Origin: Rhodospirillaceae bacterium
GTDB lineage: Bacteria; Pseudomonadota; Alphaproteobacteria; SHVP01
Length of the DNA: 64,000 nt
Direction: 5' to 3'
Assembly (NCBI GenBank): GCA_002722055.1
Contig: PBKD01000007.1
Location: 62,001 to 126,000, forward strand
In this document: piece by piece, positions 42,631 to 53,010 of the stretch
Position numbering within the stretch: position 1 is the stretch's first letter
Layout: each line of letters opens with the position of its first letter
Position numbers and translations under genes: made by a program
The notes under the pieces: model-generated
What the model was told of the DNA's origin: nothing
Seen by the model: only the letters and a program-made list of their open reading frames with translations
The model's database searches: none

Positions 42631-43200
42631 ATGAATAAAGAAAACAAAGAAAAATTAATTCTGGAACTTCAGAACGTATATAAAAAAATCGATAATTCTT
42701 TAATGCAAAACTTTGATAGAAGCTTATCTTTTCAAGACGGAATGTTTGATAGATGGGAAAGGGCAAAAAGATTAGGTTTTTCTGATGGTGCCAGTATTTA
42801 TAACTCAAGTCTTGTATACGGGAATGTAGAAGTAGATAAAAATACTTGGATAGGGCCTTATACTATTCTAGATGGTTCTGGGGGTGGTATAACAATTGGT
42901 CAGTTCTGTTCTATTTCTGCGGGAGTTCATATTTACACTCATGATACGGTAATGTGGGCTCTCTCCGGAGGTATTAAGAAAAGAAAGATTGGTTCTGTTA
43001 TTATTGGGAATAATACTTATGTTGGAAGTAAAACTGTAATAACACTCGGAGTTACTCTAGGTTCCAGGTGTCTTATAGGTGCAGGATCTTTAGTTAATAA
43101 AAGTTTTCCTGATAATTCGATAATTCTTGGAACACCTGCAAAAAAAGTTGGGACAGTAAAACTTGATAAAAATGATGAAGTAATTTTAGAGTATGACTAA
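42631..43200 (+). CDS. Hexapeptide-repeat acyltransferase
   Basis: A 189-residue left-handed beta-helix transferase. Repeats include VYGNVEVDKNTWIGPYTILDGSGGGITIGQFCSIS and GSVIIGNNTYVGSKTVITLGVTLGSRCLIGAGSLV. HIYTHDTVMWALSGG includes the His usual for acetyl transfer in CatB/NodL-like enzymes. The N-terminal 60 residues are helical and not typical of the family. Start and stop abut neighbours exactly (TAAATG before, one-base overlap after). It probably O-acetylates the polysaccharide or a sugar precursor. Confidence 0.82.
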   Translation: MNKENKEKLILELQNVYKKIDNSLMQNFDRSLSFQDGMFDRWERAKRLGFSDGASIYNSSLVYGNVEVDKNTWIGPYTILDGSGGGITIGQFCSISAGVHIYTHDTVMWALSGGIKKRKIGSVIIGNNTYVGSKTVITLGVTLGSRCLIGAGSLVNKSFPDNSIILGTPAKKVGTVKLDKNDEVILEYD

Positions 43201-44006
43201 TGAATAATATAGATAGACACTTAGATTCTCTTGAAAACGAGAGTATTTTCATCCTTCGTGAAGCTTACAATAAAATTAAACCCTTAGCTATGTTATGGTC
43301 TTTGGGTAAAGATTCTGGTGTTATGATTTGGCTAGCTAAAAAAGCTTTCTTTGGTCATATCCCATTTCCCTGTATTCATATTGATACAGAGAAAAAATTC
43401 CCTGAGATGTATGAGTTTAGAAGCAGATATTCAAAAGATTGGAATTTGAACTTAGATCTAGGATTCTGTCCTTCGATCGAGAAGATAGATCAATCTCTTC
43501 CTCCAGCGGCAAGATCTGCCGCTAGAAAGACTGCGGGTTTAAAGAAAAAGGTAAATGAATTAAAACTTAGAGGTTTGATTGCAGGAATAAGAAGAGATGA
43601 AGAGGGTAACAGGGCTAAAGAAAGATTTTTTAGTCCTAGAGATAAAAACGGAAATTGGGACTTAAATGATCAGCCTCCAGAATTTTGGGGTCATTATAAT
43701 TCTATTATTCAAGAAGGTTCGCATGTAAGAATTCATCCACTTTTGGAATGGACTGAGATTGATATTTGGAATTATATAAAAAGAGAAAATATACCTGTTG
43801 TTCCATTGTATTTTTCTAAAAATGGCAAAAGATATCGTTCTCTTGGAGATAAAGATATAACAAATCCAATAAATAGTAATGCTTCAAATATTGATGAGAT
43901 TATAAAAGAGTTAGAAAAAACACGTATATCAGAAAGATCAGGTAGAGCTATGGATCATGAAGCTGAAGATGCATTTGAAAGACTCAGAACTGATGGATAT
44001 TTATAA
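43200..44006 (+). CDS. cysD: Sulfate adenylyltransferase small subunit
   Basis: Catalytic ATP-sulfurylase subunit making adenosine phosphosulfate. The PP-loop is [20 protein letters not shown], followed by [19 protein letters not shown] and the CysD-specific [24 protein letters not shown] and [22 protein letters not shown]. The length of 268 is slightly below the common 300. It is paired with a CysN-CysC fusion two bases later. Its position between polysaccharide genes, with no cysH, cysI or cysJ nearby, suggests sulfate activation for sulfation rather than cysteine synthesis (inference). Confidence 0.93.
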
Positions 44007-44008
44007 GT

Positions 44009-45889
44009 ATGTTTTTAAATTCAAACTTTAAAATTGTTGTTGTAGGTCATGTTGATCATGGTAAATCAACTATTATAGGTAGGTTGCTTGCTGATACTGG
44101 CTCTTTACCCGATGGAAAATTAGATCAGATCAAAATCTCCTCAGAAAAGAGGGGCATGCCATTTGAGTGGGCTTTTATCTTAGATGCTTTTCAATCTGAG
44201 AGAAACCAGGGAATAACAATTGATACTACAAAGGTATTTTTTAAGTCAAAAAAAAGAAAATATATAATTATTGATTGTCCAGGGCATAAAGAGTTTTTGA
44301 AAAATATGATCACTGGTGCAGCCAGTGCTGATGTGGGTATTTTAGTTATTGATGCCTTTGAGGGCATTAAAGAACAATCGAAAAAACATGCCTACTTACT
44401 TAAGCTAATAGGAATCAAAAGAGTGATAGTAGTTATAAATAAAATGGACAAAATAAATGATCATCAAAAACTTTTTGATGATCTAGGGGATAACGTAATT
44501 AAATATCTTAACTCAATAGAATTAGATGTGATAGATGTTATCCCTGTTTCTGCTCGTGAAGGCGATGGTATCACTACAAAGTCAGCAAAGTATACATGGA
44601 AGAGTTTTCCTACTTTATTAGAATCATTAGATGAACTGGATGAGAGTCTCGATAGTGATAGACAGCCTCTTAGGTTGCCCATACAAGATGTATATAAATT
44701 TGATGATAGAAGAATTCTAGTTGGTAAAGTAGAGAGTGGTAAAATAAAGGTTGGAGATAAGTTAATTTTCTCACCTTCAAATAAATTTTCGGAAGTAAAC
44801 TCAATTGAAACTTGGGGAAAGAAACAAAATATATCATCAGTTTCTAGAGGTTTTTCAGTTGGGATTACACTTAAAGACCAACTATTCATAGAAAGAGGTG
44901 AAGTGGCCTCACATATCAGTAAGAAAGATATGCCAACAGAGACTGATATTTTTAAGGCTAGAGTTTTTTATCTTGGTACAAGTCCATTAATTGCCGGTCA
45001 ATCGTATTTAATGGAATGTGGAACCTGTTCAGTTACTGTATTTATTCAAGAAATTATTTCAATCATTTCTACGGATGACTTAAGTCATAGTAAATCATCA
45101 AATGTGAAAAAAAATCAGGTTGCTGAATTAGTAATTAGATCTGAAAAAATTATTGCTATTGATGAGTTTATAAATATTTCAGCAACAGGAAGGTTCATCC
45201 TAATAGATCAAAAAAGAATTGTTGCAGGTGGTTTAATTAGTATGGATGGCTATGCTGATCAAAGAGCCTTAGAAACTTCTTTTTCGAAGAATTTAACTAG
45301 TGTTGAACATAGAGTAAGTATTGAAGAAAGAGCGAAAAAAAATCAGCATATTGGAGGAGTTTTTTGGTTAACAGGTTTATCCGGTTCAGGAAAATCTACA
45401 ATTGCACTTGATGTCGAGAGAAGACTTTTTGAGGCAGGCTATCAGGTATACTTGCTTGATGGTGATAATGTCAGAGAAGGTTTGAACTCAAATTTAAGTT
45501 TTTCACCTGAAGATAGATCTGAAAATATCAGAAGAGTAGGAGAAGTTGCACTTTTGTTTGCTAATGCAGGTTTCATAGTTTTAAGTGCATTTATTACTCC
45601 CTATATTTCTGATAGAGCAAGGCTAAAGCGTAATTTGTCAAAAAAAACACAATTTCATGAGATCTATATTGAGTCATCGCTTAAAGTGTGTGAGCAGAGA
45701 GACCCTAAGGGTTTGTATAGAAAAGCTCGTACCGGTGAAATCAAAGATTTTACAGGAATAGACTCTCCCTATGATGTTCCAATAAACCCTGATTTAGTAA
45801 TTAATACTAACAATGAAGATAAGTATTTATCTTCATCTAAATTGGAAAAATATATTCATAAAAATCTTGGTTTTTTGCTAAAAACATAA
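44009..45889 (+). CDS. cysNC: Bifunctional sulfate adenylyltransferase large subunit / APS kinase
   Basis: NodQ-type fusion. The N-terminal GTPase (CysN) has GHVDHGKST (residues 13-21), DCPGHKEF and NKMD loops and an EF-Tu-like domain. The C-terminal APS kinase (CysC) starts around residue 445 with [18 protein letters not shown] and contains [26 protein letters not shown] and [21 protein letters not shown]. With CysD it would make PAPS, the sulfate donor for sulfotransferases. The fused form is the one recruited for nodulation-factor sulfation in rhizobia. It is the last gene before a 210-bp gap. Confidence 0.94.
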
Positions 45890-46035
45890 CAACTTGTACA
45901 TATATGTTGTATTTATGCAACAATAATTTTCATAATTAAAAAAATTCCTTAACTTTATCTTCATACTATTGTGAAAATAATCACACAATATTAGTTTATA
46001 AAGCGTAGTAAATACTTATGTTGACTAATCAGTAT
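45890..46035 (+). promoter_or_regulatory. Intergenic region with inverted repeats upstream of the GfcA-like gene
   Basis: A weak hairpin (TGTTG at 45905-45909 with CAACA at 45918-45922, then an AT-rich tail) may end the cysNC transcript. Further on, TATTGTG (45967-45973) and CACAATA (45984-45990) form a 7-bp inverted repeat with a 10-base spacer, 24 bp overall, or about two helical turns, as expected for a dimeric regulator. The dyad is centred about 65 bases upstream of the proposed -10 element. The same heptamer makes up the palindrome upstream of ccrM. Confidence 0.4.
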
Positions 46036-46063
46036 TTGTATACTAAAAACTACTTAATATAAT
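46036..46063 (+). promoter_or_regulatory. Promoter of the GfcA/YjbE-like gene
   Basis: TTGTAT (46036-46041), 16 bases, then a perfect TATAAT (46058-46063), about 37 bases before the ATG at 46100. GGAGG (46087-46091), 8 bases before that ATG, is an ideal ribosome site. A TTGACT at 46021 has no -10 at usable spacing. Together they point to a strongly expressed short mRNA. Confidence 0.62.
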
Positions 46064-46099
46064 TTTTACAGTTTAGCTCGTTAATTGGAGGTTTGCTTA

Positions 46100-46507
46100 A
46101 TGTTTTCGAAAAAGATACTTGCGAGCGTAAGTGCAATTGCTCTTCTACTTTTAGTAAGTGGAGCCCCAGCCGTTGTCAGTGCATCTGACACAGTTGTCAA
46201 CAAAGGGCAGATTTTCAAGACCGGTAAAGGTGTTGCTGCTGGTCAAAGCGCTGCAGCTGGCGGTGCTGGAGGTGCTGGTTCAGGGTTAACCGGAGCTCTT
46301 GGAACACTCGGTGCCGGTTCTGTAGCAGCTGGTGTTGCTGTTGCTGCCGCCATTGGAGTTGCAGTTGCCGCAGTAGTTGATGACTCATCCACTACAACCG
46401 CTACATCTACAACAGTTACTTGTTTCCAATGTCGTGCAGGAATTCTTATACTTGGTTCAGAATCTGGATTTAACGATTTTGCAACAAGGTTTGTATTGTT
46501 ACCATAG
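46100..46507 (+). CDS. Small secreted Gly/Ala/Thr-rich protein, GfcA/YjbE-like
   Basis: The 135-residue product has a signal peptide (MFSKKILASVSAIALLLLVS, predicted cleavage after VVSA, residue 28). A Gly/Ala segment (44-92) ends in a glycine-zipper-like hydrophobic stretch (GAGSVAAGVAVAAAIGVAVA), followed by a Thr/Ser tract (96-107), CFQC (108-111) and a nonpolar tail. This layout resembles GfcA and YjbE of the E. coli gfc and yjb capsule operons, whose role is unknown, and YjbF and YjbH homologues are adjacent. Codons are richer in G and C than the neighbours'. It has its own promoter, GGAGG site and terminator. The CxxC-containing tail is not something I recall in GfcA. Confidence 0.72.
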   Translation: MFSKKILASVSAIALLLLVSGAPAVVSASDTVVNKGQIFKTGKGVAAGQSAAAGGAGGAGSGLTGALGTLGAGSVAAGVAVAAAIGVAVAAVVDDSSTTTATSTTVTCFQCRAGILILGSESGFNDFATRFVLLP

Positions 46508-46533
46508 GACAAGTAACCTAACGGAATTCATAG

Positions 46534-46564
46534 AGCGGGCGATTTTATCGCCCGCTTTTTTTTT
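46534..46564 (+). terminator. Strong intrinsic terminator after the GfcA-like gene
   Basis: A perfect 10-bp GC-rich stem AGCGGGCGAT/ATCGCCCGCT (46534-46543 with 46547-46556), a 3-base loop and nine T residues. It is the most GC-rich hairpin in the window and isolates the GfcA-like gene from the downstream SLBB gene. The yjbF stop lies immediately beside it at 46563, so it is also the end of the convergent yjbF gene. Confidence 0.93.
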
Positions 46565-47252
46565 ATGCTGCTGGCTTTAAAACCTCAATAACTATTGGTG
46601 AAAACTCTCTTGATACATGCTGAACTGACTTCCAAACCATTCCAGTATTCGGATCAACCCAGAATAAGTTATCAAATTTCCAGTTTAGGTTTTTTGCAGT
46701 ACAAGTTTCTCTAATTAGGATAGTTTCAAAATCAATATCATAAATATTAACTATTTGTGAACCTTCGTATGAGAAGTTTGATAGTATTTTAACTGTTTTT
46801 GGATATATTGAGTTTTTGCCTTTAAAGTCAATATTCCTCTCATAAACTTTATGGTTTTCTTTTTTATGAAGACCTAAATATATTGGATCAGTGTTAATGG
46901 GTATTGTATCAATAATTGTTTCTGGTAGTCCTGCGGTTTTAAGAATTCTACCTTTCTTTATTCCAAGGACTACACCATCAGCTGCCAACCAAAATTGTTC
47001 ATTATTTTCCACTCTCCAAAGGACTAATAGGCTTTTTGGGCCCTTTCCTATCTTTGCTGATATAGACGCATACGGTAATTTCGTTATATATTCCCTTGTA
47101 AATGGTGGAGAAGGGCGGTCTTGAAAGGTGAGCTTGTATGCATCTATAATTGTTCTTGTAAGCCTGTTTTCACCACAGCTTGACAAAAGTACTGAAGCTA
47201 GTGATCCTCTAATAAACCATCTTCTGGAGATATGTAGTTGACTTTTAATCAT
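46563..47252 (-). CDS. yjbF: YjbF/GfcB family outer-membrane lipoprotein
   Basis: Group-4-capsule-type lipoprotein. MIKSQLHISRRWFIRGSLAS carries a twin-arginine-like SRRWFIRG followed by lipobox LLSSC, suggesting Tat export and lipidation. The mature part shows LPYASISAKIGKGPKSLLVL, QFWLAADGVVLGIKKGRILKTAGLPE and a C-terminal FWVDPNTGMVWKSVQHV, the order of E. coli GfcB/YjbF. The frame opens at a TTG (47267), but ATG 47252 is preferred. It converges on the GfcA-like gene and its 5' end overlaps the divergent SLBB gene by 15 bases. Confidence 0.87.
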   Translation of the reverse strand: MIKSQLHISRRWFIRGSLASVLLSSCGENRLTRTIIDAYKLTFQDRPSPPFTREYITKLPYASISAKIGKGPKSLLVLWRVENNEQFWLAADGVVLGIKKGRILKTAGLPETIIDTIPINTDPIYLGLHKKENHKVYERNIDFKGKNSIYPKTVKILSNFSYEGSQIVNIYDIDFETILIRETCTAKNLNWKFDNLFWVDPNTGMVWKSVQHVSREFSPIVIEVLKPAA

Positions 47253-50096
47253 AAAAAAATATACCAAATATTATTATCTAAAATTTCTATTTTAGCTGTT
47301 GTATTGATTTTGTCACCTGTTGAAATTGCAAAAAGTCAATCAAGCGTAGATTCAACTTTAGGTTCTCTTTTGCAATCAATAGATCAAATTTCAAGAGATA
47401 CTAGAAATAATATTCTCCCTGCTCCAAATGTTTTGGATTCAGTAAGGAATAATAGCAAATCATCAGGAACTTTAACCGGAGCAGAAACTAGACTTAATAG
47501 TACAGAATCTATTATTGCTTCTGCTTTCTGTAAAGGTGAAATAAAAAAAGAAGACCCTAGAATGTTGCTTTTGAAAGATAAATTTTCGATAGTAGAACAA
47601 GATTTTTGTAAAAGGTCAGGTAGTGTTATCCCCTTATATGGTTATGATATTTTTGATGGTAGGTTGAGATCGTCAGGGTTAACAACTGGTGAAATTAATG
47701 ATGATTATATTATTGGTATTGGAGATACTCTTGTTTATACATTCGTTGGTGCTTTATCAAATACAGCTTCAGTAGTAGTTAATACACAGGGATCTGTGGT
47801 TCTTGAGAAACTCCCTCCTATTCCTGCTGCTGGAAAAACACTTGGTGAGTTCAAAAAACTATTGCAGGAGCAGATAAATCTTTATTTCGGAGCTACTGAA
47901 TCTTATGTCAGTATCGGTAGAATAAGAGAAATATCAGTGATAGTAACTGGTGAGGTCAAAACACCTGGTCAGCATCGTGTTACTGCGCTTTCTTCGATCC
48001 TTGATACAATAGCTGTTGCAGGTGGTGTGAAAAAAACTGGTTCGCTAAGACGAATTAAATTAAAGAGAAATAAAAAAATAATTGATATAGACCTGTATAA
48101 TTTAATTCAAGGCGTATCAAACTTACCAAAGATTTCTATGAAAGAAGGAGATCAAATTATTGTGCCTACAATAGGTCCTGTAGTAGGAATAGTAGGTGAT
48201 ATAAAAAGACCTGCTCTTATTGAATTAAGCTCAGATGATTCATCTATTGATTTAGAGAGCCTTTTGAAATTTGGCGGAAGAGAGATAAGGCCTAGAGGAA
48301 ATATATACACTCTATCTACCTTTGATGAAAATGGCAGTCAAAGTGTCAAAAGCATAGAAAGTAGTTACAATTTTATGGATGGTGATTTGCTCGTTGTATC
48401 AAGAGGTCGTGAGTCTGTGGTTGGTGGAGTATGGTTAACTGGCCATGTCTCGATTCCTGGTCGAAGAGTTTTAAATATTAATAATAAAGTAAGTTCATTA
48501 TTAGGAGATAATGCTGCTAATCTCAAAAGAAACCCTTATCTCCTATTTGCCGTGCTTGAGACGGTTGATTCTAATACAAAATCTAGGAGGTTTTTTGGTT
48601 TAGATTTACAGAGAATTCTAAGTAAACAAGAAGATTTTAGGCTGATTGATGGTGATAATCTGATTGTTTTAAGTAAAAAAGATATAGATTTTTTATCATC
48701 AGATCGTGTGCAGTCGATATTGATTCAAAATAAAGATTCAATAACAATAAATAATTCTAGTCAAAATACAAATAATCAGTCAACTACATTTAATCAGAAT
48801 AGTTCTATAACATCAGTTGCAGTTTTATCTGATTTAGCAAATAAGGTTTCTGGTTTAACTGGGTCTTTAGGTAATATACCTGATAATCAAAACCAGCAAG
48901 TTCAAGTGAATCAGAAACAAGAAACAGAAACTTTAAACTGTAATTCATTAATAGAACTTAGAAATCTTGTTAAAGATTTTGGTGCAAAAAGGTTTTCTAA
49001 TGCAATTATTTCAACTGCTTTAACAAGTAAACAAACATCATTAAGTAATTTATCATGTCCAAAAGTTTTTGATGAAAACCCTGGCCTTTTGGCATATGTT
49101 TTAGAGTATGCAGTTTTAATATTAGGTGAAGTAAGGGAGCCTGGGATTTATCCAATAACCGAAGTGCCGATGGCATCTCTAGTCTCAGTTGCGGGTGGTT
49201 TGACTAGAGATGCTGATTTGACTAGAACTGAAATGTCAAATTTTGCTGTTAAAGGTCCAACTGATGCCAGGCAGCTTTTAAACCTAACCAATATTTCATT
49301 AAATGATATTTTTGTTAAACCAGCAGATGTAATCCGATTTAGTTCAAAGCCTAGTTTAAGAGGAAGTGGTCCTGTAGTGGTCAGTGGGGCTGTAGCTCAA
49401 CCAGGCACATATCAAATAAGGAGTGGTGAGAGAGTATCAGAATTGATTCAGAGAGCAGGAGGGCTTACTAATATAGCTTATCCATACGGTGCCGTATTTT
49501 TAAGAGAGAGTATAGCCAAAGCGGAGAAAGATGCTTTAATTAGGTTAACTAGAGAGTTGAATGCAGCTCTTGTTGCTGCTGCTACTAATAGAAGAGTTGA
49601 CGCAGAATCTATTGCAGCACTTTCTGGATTAGCGAGAACTCTTAATACAGCTCCTGCCACTGGCAGAATGGTTATAGAGGCAGATCCTACTGTGCTAATT
49701 TCTAAACCTGAGCTTGATGTAATACTTGAACCAGGGGATTTATTATTTATTCCTCGAAGGCCAAGTTCAGTTTTAGTAACTGGAGATGTTTTAAATCCTG
49801 GAGCAATGCAATTTTTTCCTGGTAAATCTGTAGGAGAATATATTAACTCTGCAGGGGGGTATCAGCGGTCAGCCGATAAGAATAAAGTTTTTGTTGTTCT
49901 TCCTAATGGTTCTGCTCAACCAGCAGGTAATTTTTTCTTTCAATACGCTGAAGCTCAAGTTCCTCCAGGCAGTACTGTAGTCGTTCCAAAAGATGCAACA
50001 CCATTTGACGCGTTTAACTTAACAAGAGAAGTTTCTCAAGTATTTAGTCAATTAGCAGTTGCAGCTGCAGCATTAAAGGTAATTGCAGGAAACTAA
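47238..50096 (+). CDS. Wza-like polysaccharide export protein with multiple SLBB domains
   Basis: The 952-residue product has a signal peptide (MTFNHKKIYQ, then hydrophobic to AKSQ), a Poly_export segment at about 152-230 (DDYIIGIGDTLVYTF), and six SLBB-like units. Each unit carries a recurring hydrophobic-G-x-[VI]-x-x-P-G/A pattern, near residues 234 (TGEVKTPGQ), 317, 398, 627 (LGEVREPGI), 713 (SGAVAQPGT) and 846 (TGDVLNPGA). An Asn/Gln-rich linker (about 495-570) splits them. It probably forms the outer-membrane/periplasmic export channel and may include the GfcC/YjbG function. The TTG start at 47238 is supported by GGAGA 7 bases upstream. Confidence 0.87.
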   Translation: MTFNHKKIYQILLSKISILAVVLILSPVEIAKSQSSVDSTLGSLLQSIDQISRDTRNNILPAPNVLDSVRNNSKSSGTLTGAETRLNSTESIIASAFCKGEIKKEDPRMLLLKDKFSIVEQDFCKRSGSVIPLYGYDIFDGRLRSSGLTTGEINDDYIIGIGDTLVYTFVGALSNTASVVVNTQGSVVLEKLPPIPAAGKTLGEFKKLLQEQINLYFGATESYVSIGRIREISVIVTGEVKTPGQHRVTALSSILDTIAVAGGVKKTGSLRRIKLKRNKKIIDIDLYNLIQGVSNLPKISMKEGDQIIVPTIGPVVGIVGDIKRPALIELSSDDSSIDLESLLKFGGREIRPRGNIYTLSTFDENGSQSVKSIESSYNFMDGDLLVVSRGRESVVGGVWLTGHVSIPGRRVLNINNKVSSLLGDNAANLKRNPYLLFAVLETVDSNTKSRRFFGLDLQRILSKQEDFRLIDGDNLIVLSKKDIDFLSSDRVQSILIQNKDSITINNSSQNTNNQSTTFNQNSSITSVAVLSDLANKVSGLTGSLGNIPDNQNQQVQVNQKQETETLNCNSLIELRNLVKDFGAKRFSNAIISTALTSKQTSLSNLSCPKVFDENPGLLAYVLEYAVLILGEVREPGIYPITEVPMASLVSVAGGLTRDADLTRTEMSNFAVKGPTDARQLLNLTNISLNDIFVKPADVIRFSSKPSLRGSGPVVVSGAVAQPGTYQIRSGERVSELIQRAGGLTNIAYPYGAVFLRESIAKAEKDALIRLTRELNAALVAAATNRRVDAESIAALSGLARTLNTAPATGRMVIEADPTVLISKPELDVILEPGDLLFIPRRPSSVLVTGDVLNPGAMQFFPGKSVGEYINSAGGYQRSADKNKVFVVLPNGSAQPAGNFFFQYAEAQVPPGSTVVVPKDATPFDAFNLTREVSQVFSQLAVAAAALKVIAGN

Positions 50097-50118
50097 ATTA
50101 ACTTTGGTTAAATATTTT

Positions 50119-53010
50119 ATGAAATTTAAATTATTCATTTTCGTTCCAATTGTTACTGCACTCTTAGTACTCATAAAGCCAAATATATCAAAAGCAGATT
50201 TTTTTCAAGAATTTCAGCCATCTGCATCAGATTATGGAGGAATAGGTTTATTCCAAACAAGGTCAGCAAGATTCGCTAAAGACTCAACATTTGAATTTTC
50301 TAGGTCGTATGTCCCACCATATGAGAGATGGTTAGTTAATATTCAAATTTTACCTTGGCTAGAAGGTACTTTTAGATACACATCCATAGAAAATAGGAAT
50401 TTTCTTGGAGGAAACTTTATTGTTGGTACGACATTTAAAGATAGAGCTATCGATTTTAAATTTCTTCTTCTAGAAGAAGATTTTTTATTTCCTCAAGTAG
50501 CTTTAGGTTTTCAAGACTTTTTAGGAACAGGTCTATTCTCTGGTGAGTATCTTGTTGCATCAAAAAGATTTGGAGATTTAGATTTTTCTTTTGGGGTTGG
50601 TTGGGGTTATACAGCAGGTTCAGGAACTAGGGATAAAGAACAGCCTGCTGGGCTAAGGAGGAATAACCCTTTTATAAATTTTTCAGATAGTTTTAAAAGC
50701 AGAAGTTCTGGAAATAGACAAGGAGGTTCATTCGCACCAGGTGCCTGGTTTTCAGGAGATGAAATTTCATTTTTTACAGGTATAGAATATTTTACTCCCA
50801 TTAAAGGTTTAACCTTTAAGATCGAGAGCGATCCACATAATTATTCTAGTGAACCTGTAGGTAATGATTTAGATCAGTCTTCAAATATTAATTGGGGTTT
50901 TAATTATCGAGGTTTCAATTGGCTTGATGTTGCTTTTGCGAGGCAAAGGGGTGAAGAATGGATGTTAAGATTCGGCCTTAGAGCCAATTTGAATGATCAA
51001 GGAATCCCAAAATTAATGGACGAGCCCCCGAACAAACTAAAGGTTAGAAAAAAAACTCTATCCAGTCGAAAAAGTGATATAGGTGTTGACCCCTCTAATA
51101 TTAAAAAAAATGATAAAAAATTGCAGCCCTGGTTCTACGATAGGTATAGACCTTCAAATGATAATCTAAGAATTTCTACTCTCAGAAAAATTTTAAATGA
51201 AGATGGAATAGATGTGATAAAATTAAACTTTAGAGATGGGTCAATCTTCATTGAAGTTTTTAGTGAATTTGATGAGAGGAGCATTGCTCAAATAATATCG
51301 ACTCATTCTGATTTATATATAAAAAGTATAATTGTTAAAAATAAAAATATTACTCATGAATTTGATATCAATGATCTAAAAAATACACTTGCTATAGATA
51401 ATTTATTTTACCAATTAAATAAAAGTGGTTGGCAAGTAACTGAAGTTAAAATCAATCAGGATGTAATGATAGTTTATGTTATCCCCTTATTAGGTAATTT
51501 TCCTGTCAGAACAATAGACAAGAAATTTGTAATTTTACCACCAGGAATAAAAAATATAAAAATTACTACTATTTTTGAAAACACAGCACGTGATATCACA
51601 ACAAATGTGATTACTGACAATAGAAAAGATAGTTTAGAAAAAACTCGTACACAAAAAAATTATGATAATTTTGAAATAAAATTAAAGAGAAATTCAAAAA
51701 ATGAAAATGAATCAAGTAATTTTTTTACTCAATTAAGGGACGCGTTTACTGGAGGGTCTAGTCTAAGAAAATTATTTGGTGATGGTGTCCCTTATAAGTG
51801 GAATAATTCAATTATAGCTGAAAATATAATTAGTGATCTCGAAGAAGATGAAATCAAAATTAAGAAAATATTATTTAAAGAAAATATAGTAACAGTACAT
51901 ATTTTTAGGGGCAGATATCGAACAGTTCCAAAAAATTTAGGTAGAGTTCTAAGGGTAGTATCAGAGAATGTATATGAGGATATTGAGACAATAAATTTAG
52001 TTCTAGAGTCACCAGCAGGTGAAGTTGCAAGATTTTCTATAAGAAGAGAACAGTTTGAAAAAGCAATATTAAATCAAGGTAGTGCTCAAGAAGTGTGGAG
52101 TACAGCATCGATTGAACGGCCTAAAGGTAGTTGGTCAAAAGATGGAGAAATTTTTAATAATACTTTATATCCAGACATGAGGTGGAGTATTAAGCCCGGA
52201 ATTCAGCAACATATTGGTGGAGGGGACCAATTCTTATTGCATCAGTTATTTGCAAATGTTGCTGCAAAGATATCTTTTGCAGATGGCTTTGATATTGATG
52301 CAGCCTTTGCTCTTGATTTATTCGATAATTTTGATCGCATAACAATACCAAGTGATTCAAGATTACCAAAGGTAAGATCAGAAATCAAAAATTACCTTCA
52401 AACAGGAAAGACCACTATCAGAAAATTAAGAGTAAACTATATGTTTAGTCCATTGACAGATATATATACACGATTAACAGCTGGATATTTTGAAATGATG
52501 TTTGGAGGTTTTGGCGCAGAGGTTCTATATCGTCCATTTGGTAAACGATATGCGTATGGAGTAGATATAAATTATGCAAGGAAAAGAAATTTTGACCAAT
52601 TATGGGGGTTTCAGGACTTTACAACAAAAACAGGTCATTTCAATTTTTACTATAATTCACCTTTTTATAATATAAATACTGTAACGCATATAGGTAGATA
52701 TCTTGCTGGAGATGATGGAATAACGCAAATCTTTTATAGGAGGTTCAAAAGTGGGATTAGTTCAGGGGTGTGGGCCACAATAACAAATATTCCGTTTAAA
52801 ACATTTGGTGAAGGAAGTTTTGATAAAGGCTTTTTTATAAATGTACCTTTAGATTTATTTTCAACAAGAGAAAATACTTTTCATGGAGTTTTTGGTTTTA
52901 GGCCTCTTACTAAAGATGGTGGTCAAATGTTGGATATTAAAAAATTACATGACCATGTAGCTATTTTCCCAGATGAAATAGCAAGAGACTGGAAGTATAT
53001 TTTAGAATAA
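50119..53010 (+). CDS. yjbH: YjbH/GfcD family outer-membrane protein
   Basis: A large (about 963 residues) exported protein with signal peptide (LFIFVPIVTALLVLI, ending ISKA). The N-terminal block DYGGIGLFQTRSARFAKDSTF, LPWLEGTFRYTS, FKDRAIDFKFLLLEE and TGLFSGEYLVASKRFGDLDFSFGVGWGY is the hallmark of YjbH/GfcD. The C-terminal third is rich in alternating aromatic beta strands and fits a porin-like barrel. A lysine/asparagine-rich middle (about 325-350) looks like a linker. The frame opens at a TTG inside the SLBB gene; the ATG at 50119 is preferred. It should work with the SLBB exporter and YjbF. Confidence 0.9.
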   Translation: MKFKLFIFVPIVTALLVLIKPNISKADFFQEFQPSASDYGGIGLFQTRSARFAKDSTFEFSRSYVPPYERWLVNIQILPWLEGTFRYTSIENRNFLGGNFIVGTTFKDRAIDFKFLLLEEDFLFPQVALGFQDFLGTGLFSGEYLVASKRFGDLDFSFGVGWGYTAGSGTRDKEQPAGLRRNNPFINFSDSFKSRSSGNRQGGSFAPGAWFSGDEISFFTGIEYFTPIKGLTFKIESDPHNYSSEPVGNDLDQSSNINWGFNYRGFNWLDVAFARQRGEEWMLRFGLRANLNDQGIPKLMDEPPNKLKVRKKTLSSRKSDIGVDPSNIKKNDKKLQPWFYDRYRPSNDNLRISTLRKILNEDGIDVIKLNFRDGSIFIEVFSEFDERSIAQIISTHSDLYIKSIIVKNKNITHEFDINDLKNTLAIDNLFYQLNKSGWQVTEVKINQDVMIVYVIPLLGNFPVRTIDKKFVILPPGIKNIKITTIFENTARDITTNVITDNRKDSLEKTRTQKNYDNFEIKLKRNSKNENESSNFFTQLRDAFTGGSSLRKLFGDGVPYKWNNSIIAENIISDLEEDEIKIKKILFKENIVTVHIFRGRYRTVPKNLGRVLRVVSENVYEDIETINLVLESPAGEVARFSIRREQFEKAILNQGSAQEVWSTASIERPKGSWSKDGEIFNNTLYPDMRWSIKPGIQQHIGGGDQFLLHQLFANVAAKISFADGFDIDAAFALDLFDNFDRITIPSDSRLPKVRSEIKNYLQTGKTTIRKLRVNYMFSPLTDIYTRLTAGYFEMMFGGFGAEVLYRPFGKRYAYGVDINYARKRNFDQLWGFQDFTTKTGHFNFYYNSPFYNINTVTHIGRYLAGDDGITQIFYRRFKSGISSGVWATITNIPFKTFGEGSFDKGFFINVPLDLFSTRENTFHGVFGFRPLTKDGGQMLDIKKLHDHVAIFPDEIARDWKYILE

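Follow-up and report, generated by a model that had tools for sequence, protein, structure and literature searches.

A small GfcA/YjbE-like gene converges on yjbF in alphaproteobacterial polysaccharide export loci and shares a C-terminal module with FecR-domain proteins

In at least 13 alphaproteobacterial families the usual layout of a gfc/yjb-type polysaccharide export locus is a convergent pair, in which the gene for a small secreted protein and yjbF face each other on opposite strands. We describe this layout from a 64-kb stretch of DNA (the window) of a marine SHVP01 bacterium, whose draft genome comprises 2.16 Mb in 15 contigs and to which the MAG MarineAlpha2_Bin1 is the nearest named relative found. 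An unexpected further finding, new here, is that the C-terminal module of the small GfcA-like protein is shared with FecR-domain proteins. The explanation we favour, with somewhat better than even confidence, is that the small protein is the GfcA/YjbE counterpart and assists polysaccharide export from within the envelope, with a C-terminal anchor or sorting module at its core. The content of the locus, its conserved arrangement, the layout of the protein, the sharing of the module with FecR-domain proteins and its co-occurrence with yjbF are observed here, and the envelope location, docking and glycosylation or attachment are inferred.

The locus in the window is an ordinary alphaproteobacterial gfc/yjb-type polysaccharide export locus, consisting of the small gene (+), yjbF (−), a GfcC-ended outer-membrane polysaccharide export (OPX) gene (+) and yjbH (+). 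The small gene occupies positions 46100–46507 of the forward strand, with its ATG at 46100, and encodes a GfcA/YjbE-like secreted protein of 135 aa. The yjbF/gfcB lipoprotein gene lies on the minus strand (46563–47252), as a sequence-only reading of this DNA had stated; its product matches PF11102 with an E-value of 4.5e-38 (131.3 bits against a cut-off of 25.9) and has a lipobox-like LLSSC, so that both the HMM score and the lipoprotein signal place it in the YjbF/GfcB family. The stop codons of these two convergent genes are separated by 55 bp. The OPX gene (47238–50096, forward strand; PF02563, PF10531, PF22461 and PF06251) encodes Poly_export and SLBB domains followed by GfcC at the C-terminus. 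This is the composition of Class 2 OPX proteins, which are KpsD-like and GfcC-ended (PMC9603273), although the product is longer, at 952 aa, and has four SLBB stretches. The yjbH/gfcD outer-membrane barrel gene follows at 50083–53010 on the forward strand (PF06082, E-value 5.9e-175). The yjbF and OPX genes stand head-to-head and their 5' ends overlap by 15 bp if the apparent start codons, TTG at 47238 and ATG at 47252, are used; the same overlap is seen in the sister species, G001. The capsule export genes are immediately preceded by cysD and cysNC (43200–45889), for sulfate activation to PAPS, and this pair is also found near yjbF or yjbH in G001, G007, G041, G169 and G086. Its position beside the export genes hints that the exported polysaccharide may be sulfated.

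We evaluated the arrangement in loci defined by PF11102 matches from Alphaproteobacteria and the wider phylum. Small genes were sought by layout only, namely a signal peptide, a Gly/Ala/Val segment and a Ser/Thr/Asp/Asn tail. A strict version of this detector missed the 135-aa protein on account of its C-terminal extension, and a relaxed version finds it. The detector yielded 17 candidates across 326 kb, 16 of them in yjbF loci; the remaining one was a homologue of the 135-aa protein from a genome that gave no yjbF match. The small gene was convergent with, and 3' of, yjbF in 23 of the 33 alphaproteobacterial yjbF loci, spanning 13 families; at two more loci (L085 and L144, family f23) it was 3' of yjbF on the same strand. 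Outside Alphaproteobacteria, by contrast, it was co-directional with yjbF and 5' of it at every locus (15/15), in agreement with the earlier statement that the E. coli-type equivalents run in one direction. In loci read over a longer distance, the genes usually stood in the order small gene, yjbF, OPX-GfcC, yjbH, with yjbF the only one inverted (L038, L040, L041, L043, L051, L053 and L055), while L050 and L044/L045 retained the convergent pair with OPX and yjbH elsewhere or not found nearby. The sequence-only reading had regarded the locus as rearranged in this organism and had proposed looking for the same gene order in other Alphaproteobacteria. That search succeeded, and a rearrangement in a single genome is rejected by conservation in 13 families: the state in the window is typical of the class, the gene order being intact apart from the strand of yjbF. 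In a literature search covering sources other than subscription journals and preprints, we found no description of this alphaproteobacterial arrangement.

Small genes were also found in other contexts. Tandem pairs of small GfcA-like genes converge on yjbF at L027, L029, L030 and L087. Five genomes with yjbF and no local small gene (G019, G194, G654, G695 and G724) have one elsewhere. Homologues that do not adjoin yjbF occur in G005, in G008 as a second copy, and in G009, and these count against the explanation that we favour. A second group of small-protein paralogues (AQSQASKTGLGVSRQ...SSASSTN) occurs in genus g4 (L122:8671–8949, L123:9468–9773 and L042:1207–1488) and is not beside yjbF where read.

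The 135-aa protein begins with a predicted signal peptide (residues ~1–28) and continues with a Gly/Ala-rich linker carrying a FKTGKG.AAGQ motif, a hydrophobic Ala/Gly/Val helix (~73–93) and a DD plus Thr tail (94–107). The description of a short secreted protein of GfcA/YjbE layout is thereby borne out: the signal-peptide-like N-terminus, Gly/Ala/Val segment and Thr tail are all present. The apparent dG of the helix is +1.3, and members of the alphaproteobacterial set range from about −0.8 to +3.1. The helix is thus marginal for membrane insertion, which fits either retention in the envelope or passage through the membrane. An AlphaFold model of the protein is of low confidence (mean pLDDT 54.9); helices are called, including a membrane-type helix at 72–94 at low pLDDT. 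Beyond the Thr tail lies a genus-specific, Cys-containing extension of 28 residues (108–135), which, like the poor model, weighs against the favoured explanation. Compared with G001, its identities at the three codon positions are 0.655/0.793/0.724, indicating little constraint, and there is no indel until the last few codons; it is probably a recent addition to the tail. The CFQC motif remarked on earlier is present at residues 108–111. It is nevertheless no family feature: the sister species has CRQC, the motif is missing from the homologues read beyond G001, and a functional family motif is rejected for an extension that is confined to the genus and weakly constrained.

To what extent the small protein belongs with GfcA/YjbE depends on how the family is drawn. 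Searched against Pfam and NCBIfam, the 135-aa protein gave no match, and neither it nor six other alphaproteobacterial members matched the Pfam YjbE model PF11106 (cut-off 27.9 bits). Enterobacterales-type members used as controls matched at 2.3e-32 and 1.2e-33, and another member of gammaproteobacterial type fell just under the cut-off, showing that the model is narrow. In a profile-profile comparison of mature sequences with hhalign, the alphaproteobacterial set scored 36.6 against gammaproteobacterial YjbE/GfcA. When columns were shuffled 100 times, each within its own block (linker, helix or tail), the median score was 12.5 and the maximum 22.9; seven whole-column shuffles scored about 125, as alignment artefacts of 2–6 columns. 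Because the within-block shuffles score lower, the match goes beyond composition and layout, and likeness of layout as its sole cause is rejected. Although the protein misses PF11106, the profile comparison links it to YjbE/GfcA, and the condition named as refuting the earlier reading, an unrelated family and an unconserved gene order, does not hold. We regard the small protein as GfcA/YjbE-like in a broad sense and outside PF11106, a placement based on sequence comparison in which low-complexity composition weakens any claim of homology.

The comparison with GfcA/YjbE of the E. coli group 4 capsule and yjbEFGH systems points the same way. Common to both are the signal peptide, the Gly/Ala/Val stretch, the acidic step, a Ser/Thr-rich (here Thr) tail with a polar or basic last residue, and the yjbF/gfcB neighbour, with gfcC and gfcD/yjbH functions also encoded in the locus. 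The alphaproteobacterial protein differs in having a longer linker with a KTG.GxAAGQ motif and, in the 135-aa member, the 28 extra residues after the tail. The small gene also lies on the opposite strand, 3' of yjbF, whereas the E. coli gene is the first of a co-directional operon. This missing co-directionality is a class difference of arrangement, not of content.

The region upstream of the small gene (45920–46099, forward strand), comprising its promoter or 5' leader, is constrained. It is 94% identical to G001, compared with 83% over the 10-kb region and 67–77% at third codon positions of the flanking genes, which indicates that the leader is under selection. An Rfam scan over the small-gene region found no family at gathering score, with weak matches overlapping the terminator hairpin, and a riboswitch or known sRNA there is rejected on this basis. 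Within the leader is a CRP-like palindrome, TGTGAAAATAATCACA (45970–45985, forward strand), noticed post hoc, which is a candidate operator. It is the sole perfect match in the window and the sole perfect TTGTGAN6TCACA in the genome, is kept in G001, and the source genome encodes a CRP/FNR-type HTH protein. The site is absent upstream of small-gene homologues outside the genus, and a general role in regulating these genes is accordingly rejected.

The sequence-only reading had credited the small gene with its own −35/−10, an ideal GGAGG and the strongest terminator in the window, and had taken the apparently strong expression to suggest that the cell requires the protein in large amounts, as a structural or secreted component and not as an assembly factor. 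The ribosome-binding site is as described, with GGAGG at 46087–46091, 8 nt before the ATG and unchanged in G001. So is the terminator (46532–46560, forward strand; 46532–46558 plus a T-run), whose 12-bp stem with 7 G-C pairs has an MFE of −22.4 kcal/mol (z −3.55) and has the most G-C pairs among terminator-like sites in scans over the whole window. The promoter is less clear. Candidate boxes do lie within the conserved leader, read from the sequence as TTGACT-17-TAAAAA (46021–46049), of which TTGACT is conserved in G001, and a perfect TATAAT (46058–46063) with a poor −35. They are weak, however, and a sigma-70-like scan (at least 9/12, with required −10 bases) of the forward strand just upstream of the gene returned no site. 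As the scan reported no terminator-like site between cysNC and the small gene, co-transcription from cysNC is possible. Codon usage on Gly/Ala/Val/Thr/Ser is average (0.593 against a window median of 0.580), and the figure is low when every codon is counted (0.60 against 0.70). With average-to-low codon bias and weak sigma-70 boxes, strong expression is unsupported, and so is a need for the protein in bulk.

A rival reading is that the small protein is itself a bulk secreted structural product, for example the subunit of a matrix or of an amyloid-like fibre, with a FapF-like N-terminal YjbH barrel as its exporter. The protein is secreted and rich in Gly, Ala and Thr, its gene looks monocistronic with a terminator and a good Shine–Dalgarno sequence, and a helix so marginally hydrophobic could pass through the Sec channel. 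Fold recognition has also likened the N-terminal half of GfcD/YjbH to the amyloid exporter FapF, the C-terminal half resembling a polysaccharide porin (PMC9603273). In EPEC, deletion of gfcA abolishes the group 4 capsule and plasmid-borne gfcA restores it (PMC3853201), a requirement that does not decide between a bulk component and an assembly factor. We consider the fibre improbable, since codon usage and promoter give no sign of high expression, neither repeats nor an amyloid-type Gln/Asn pattern were seen in the protein, and its module also caps FecR-domain proteins (below), which is ill-fitting for a fibre subunit. Far less credible again is mutual regulation of the small-gene and yjbF transcripts by antisense overlap. 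The short gap between the convergent stop codons and the conservation of the arrangement in 13 families would suit it, but the strong forward terminator ends the small-gene transcript ahead of yjbF, and terminator-like sites follow 14 of 23 alphaproteobacterial small-gene homologues, contrary to what regulation of this kind would require.

The C-terminal module consists of the Ala/Gly/Val helix, an acidic step, the Thr tail and a terminal Asn/Arg/Gln, preceded by Thr in most members. A helix-plus-tail alignment searched against 367 alphaproteobacterial genomes matched in 24. Of these, 21 have yjbF, compared with 33 of 385 genomes in the yjbF survey (Fisher ~8e-23, a value that is approximate since the two samples, 367 and 385, are not identical). 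The module also ends secreted PF04773 FecR-domain proteins in five genomes, G034, G194, G574, G654 and G724 (L121:11203–12057, L154:6363–7178, L156:6618–7454, L160:197–1063 and L162:5770–6588). In G654 the FecR protein and the small protein end in the same 25 residues (25/25); the DNA of the two tails is also similar, so that gene conversion is possible. SDDD...VDPCPSSTCG is common to the FecR tail of G574 and the small-protein tail of G659, two genomes of one genus. The two coding sequences differ at many synonymous positions, pointing to selection at the protein level. G659 and G574 also encode short secreted proteins of a third type (YPPLVSD... ARTSRYAKLLK), which end similarly in a DDDD-Ser/Thr tail (L161:6409–6813 and L151:390–848). 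Neighbours of the FecR-module genes differ by genome and are not consistently polysaccharide genes, which counts against an accessory model and led us to reject the idea that they belong to a single capsule operon. Recurrence of the tail on larger secreted proteins hints at an envelope targeting or attachment signal.

Such recurrence invites comparison with PEP-CTERM and GlyGly-CTERM, which likewise place a C-terminal hydrophobic helix and short tail on otherwise different secreted proteins. The helix and Thr tail might, on that concept, be a dedicated C-terminal sorting signal that is cleaved or conjugated by a hypothetical yjb/gfc enzyme, with the small protein as carrier or decoy. Two protein types with lineage-matched tails, such as the unusual VDPCPSSTCG ending within one genus, would agree with this, as would co-occurrence with yjbF and the Thr-Asn/Arg/Gln terminus of most members. 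We nonetheless think it unlikely. The module has no PEP or GlyGly signature and no basic end cluster, its tail is Thr-rich, and it matched none of the curated CTERM sorting models in NCBIfam or Pfam. The G654 tail identity may have arisen by gene conversion of the DNA, and G034 and G574 carry FecR-module genes and gave no yjbF match.

These data allow us to propose how the small protein, as the GfcA/YjbE counterpart and envelope accessory, might act. It would carry a cleavable signal peptide and cross the inner membrane by Sec export. The marginally hydrophobic Ala/Gly/Val helix would then keep it in the envelope, as an anchor or through oligomerisation, from where a disordered Thr-rich tail would be presented. 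From the features of the module we infer its docking to, or processing or glycosylation by, the YjbF/OPX/YjbH machine, after which the envelope-held protein may act as an accessory to the exported glycan or as the point where it is attached. In the literature, interactions among GfcB, GfcC and GfcD are established, and Larson et al. put forward glycosylation of GfcA at Ser/Thr residues, with GfcD exporting the glycan (PMC8592465). The loss of the EPEC capsule on gfcA deletion, cited above, also favours this explanation.

A class-wide rule, in which yjbF is flipped and the small gene convergent in Alphaproteobacteria, can aid annotation of a gene that is easily missed because it is short, of low complexity and without a Pfam match. 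If the same tail is processed or glycosylated alike on FecR proteins and on the small protein, the function of GfcA would become accessible. More speculatively, and with rather low confidence, GfcA/YjbE-like proteins may be the smallest carriers of a C-terminal module, not described before, for sorting or glycan attachment, which is shared with FecR-domain secreted proteins and read by the YjbF/OPX/YjbH machine. Were this true, the capsule system would be a protein-anchoring or protein-glycan conjugation system besides a polysaccharide exporter.
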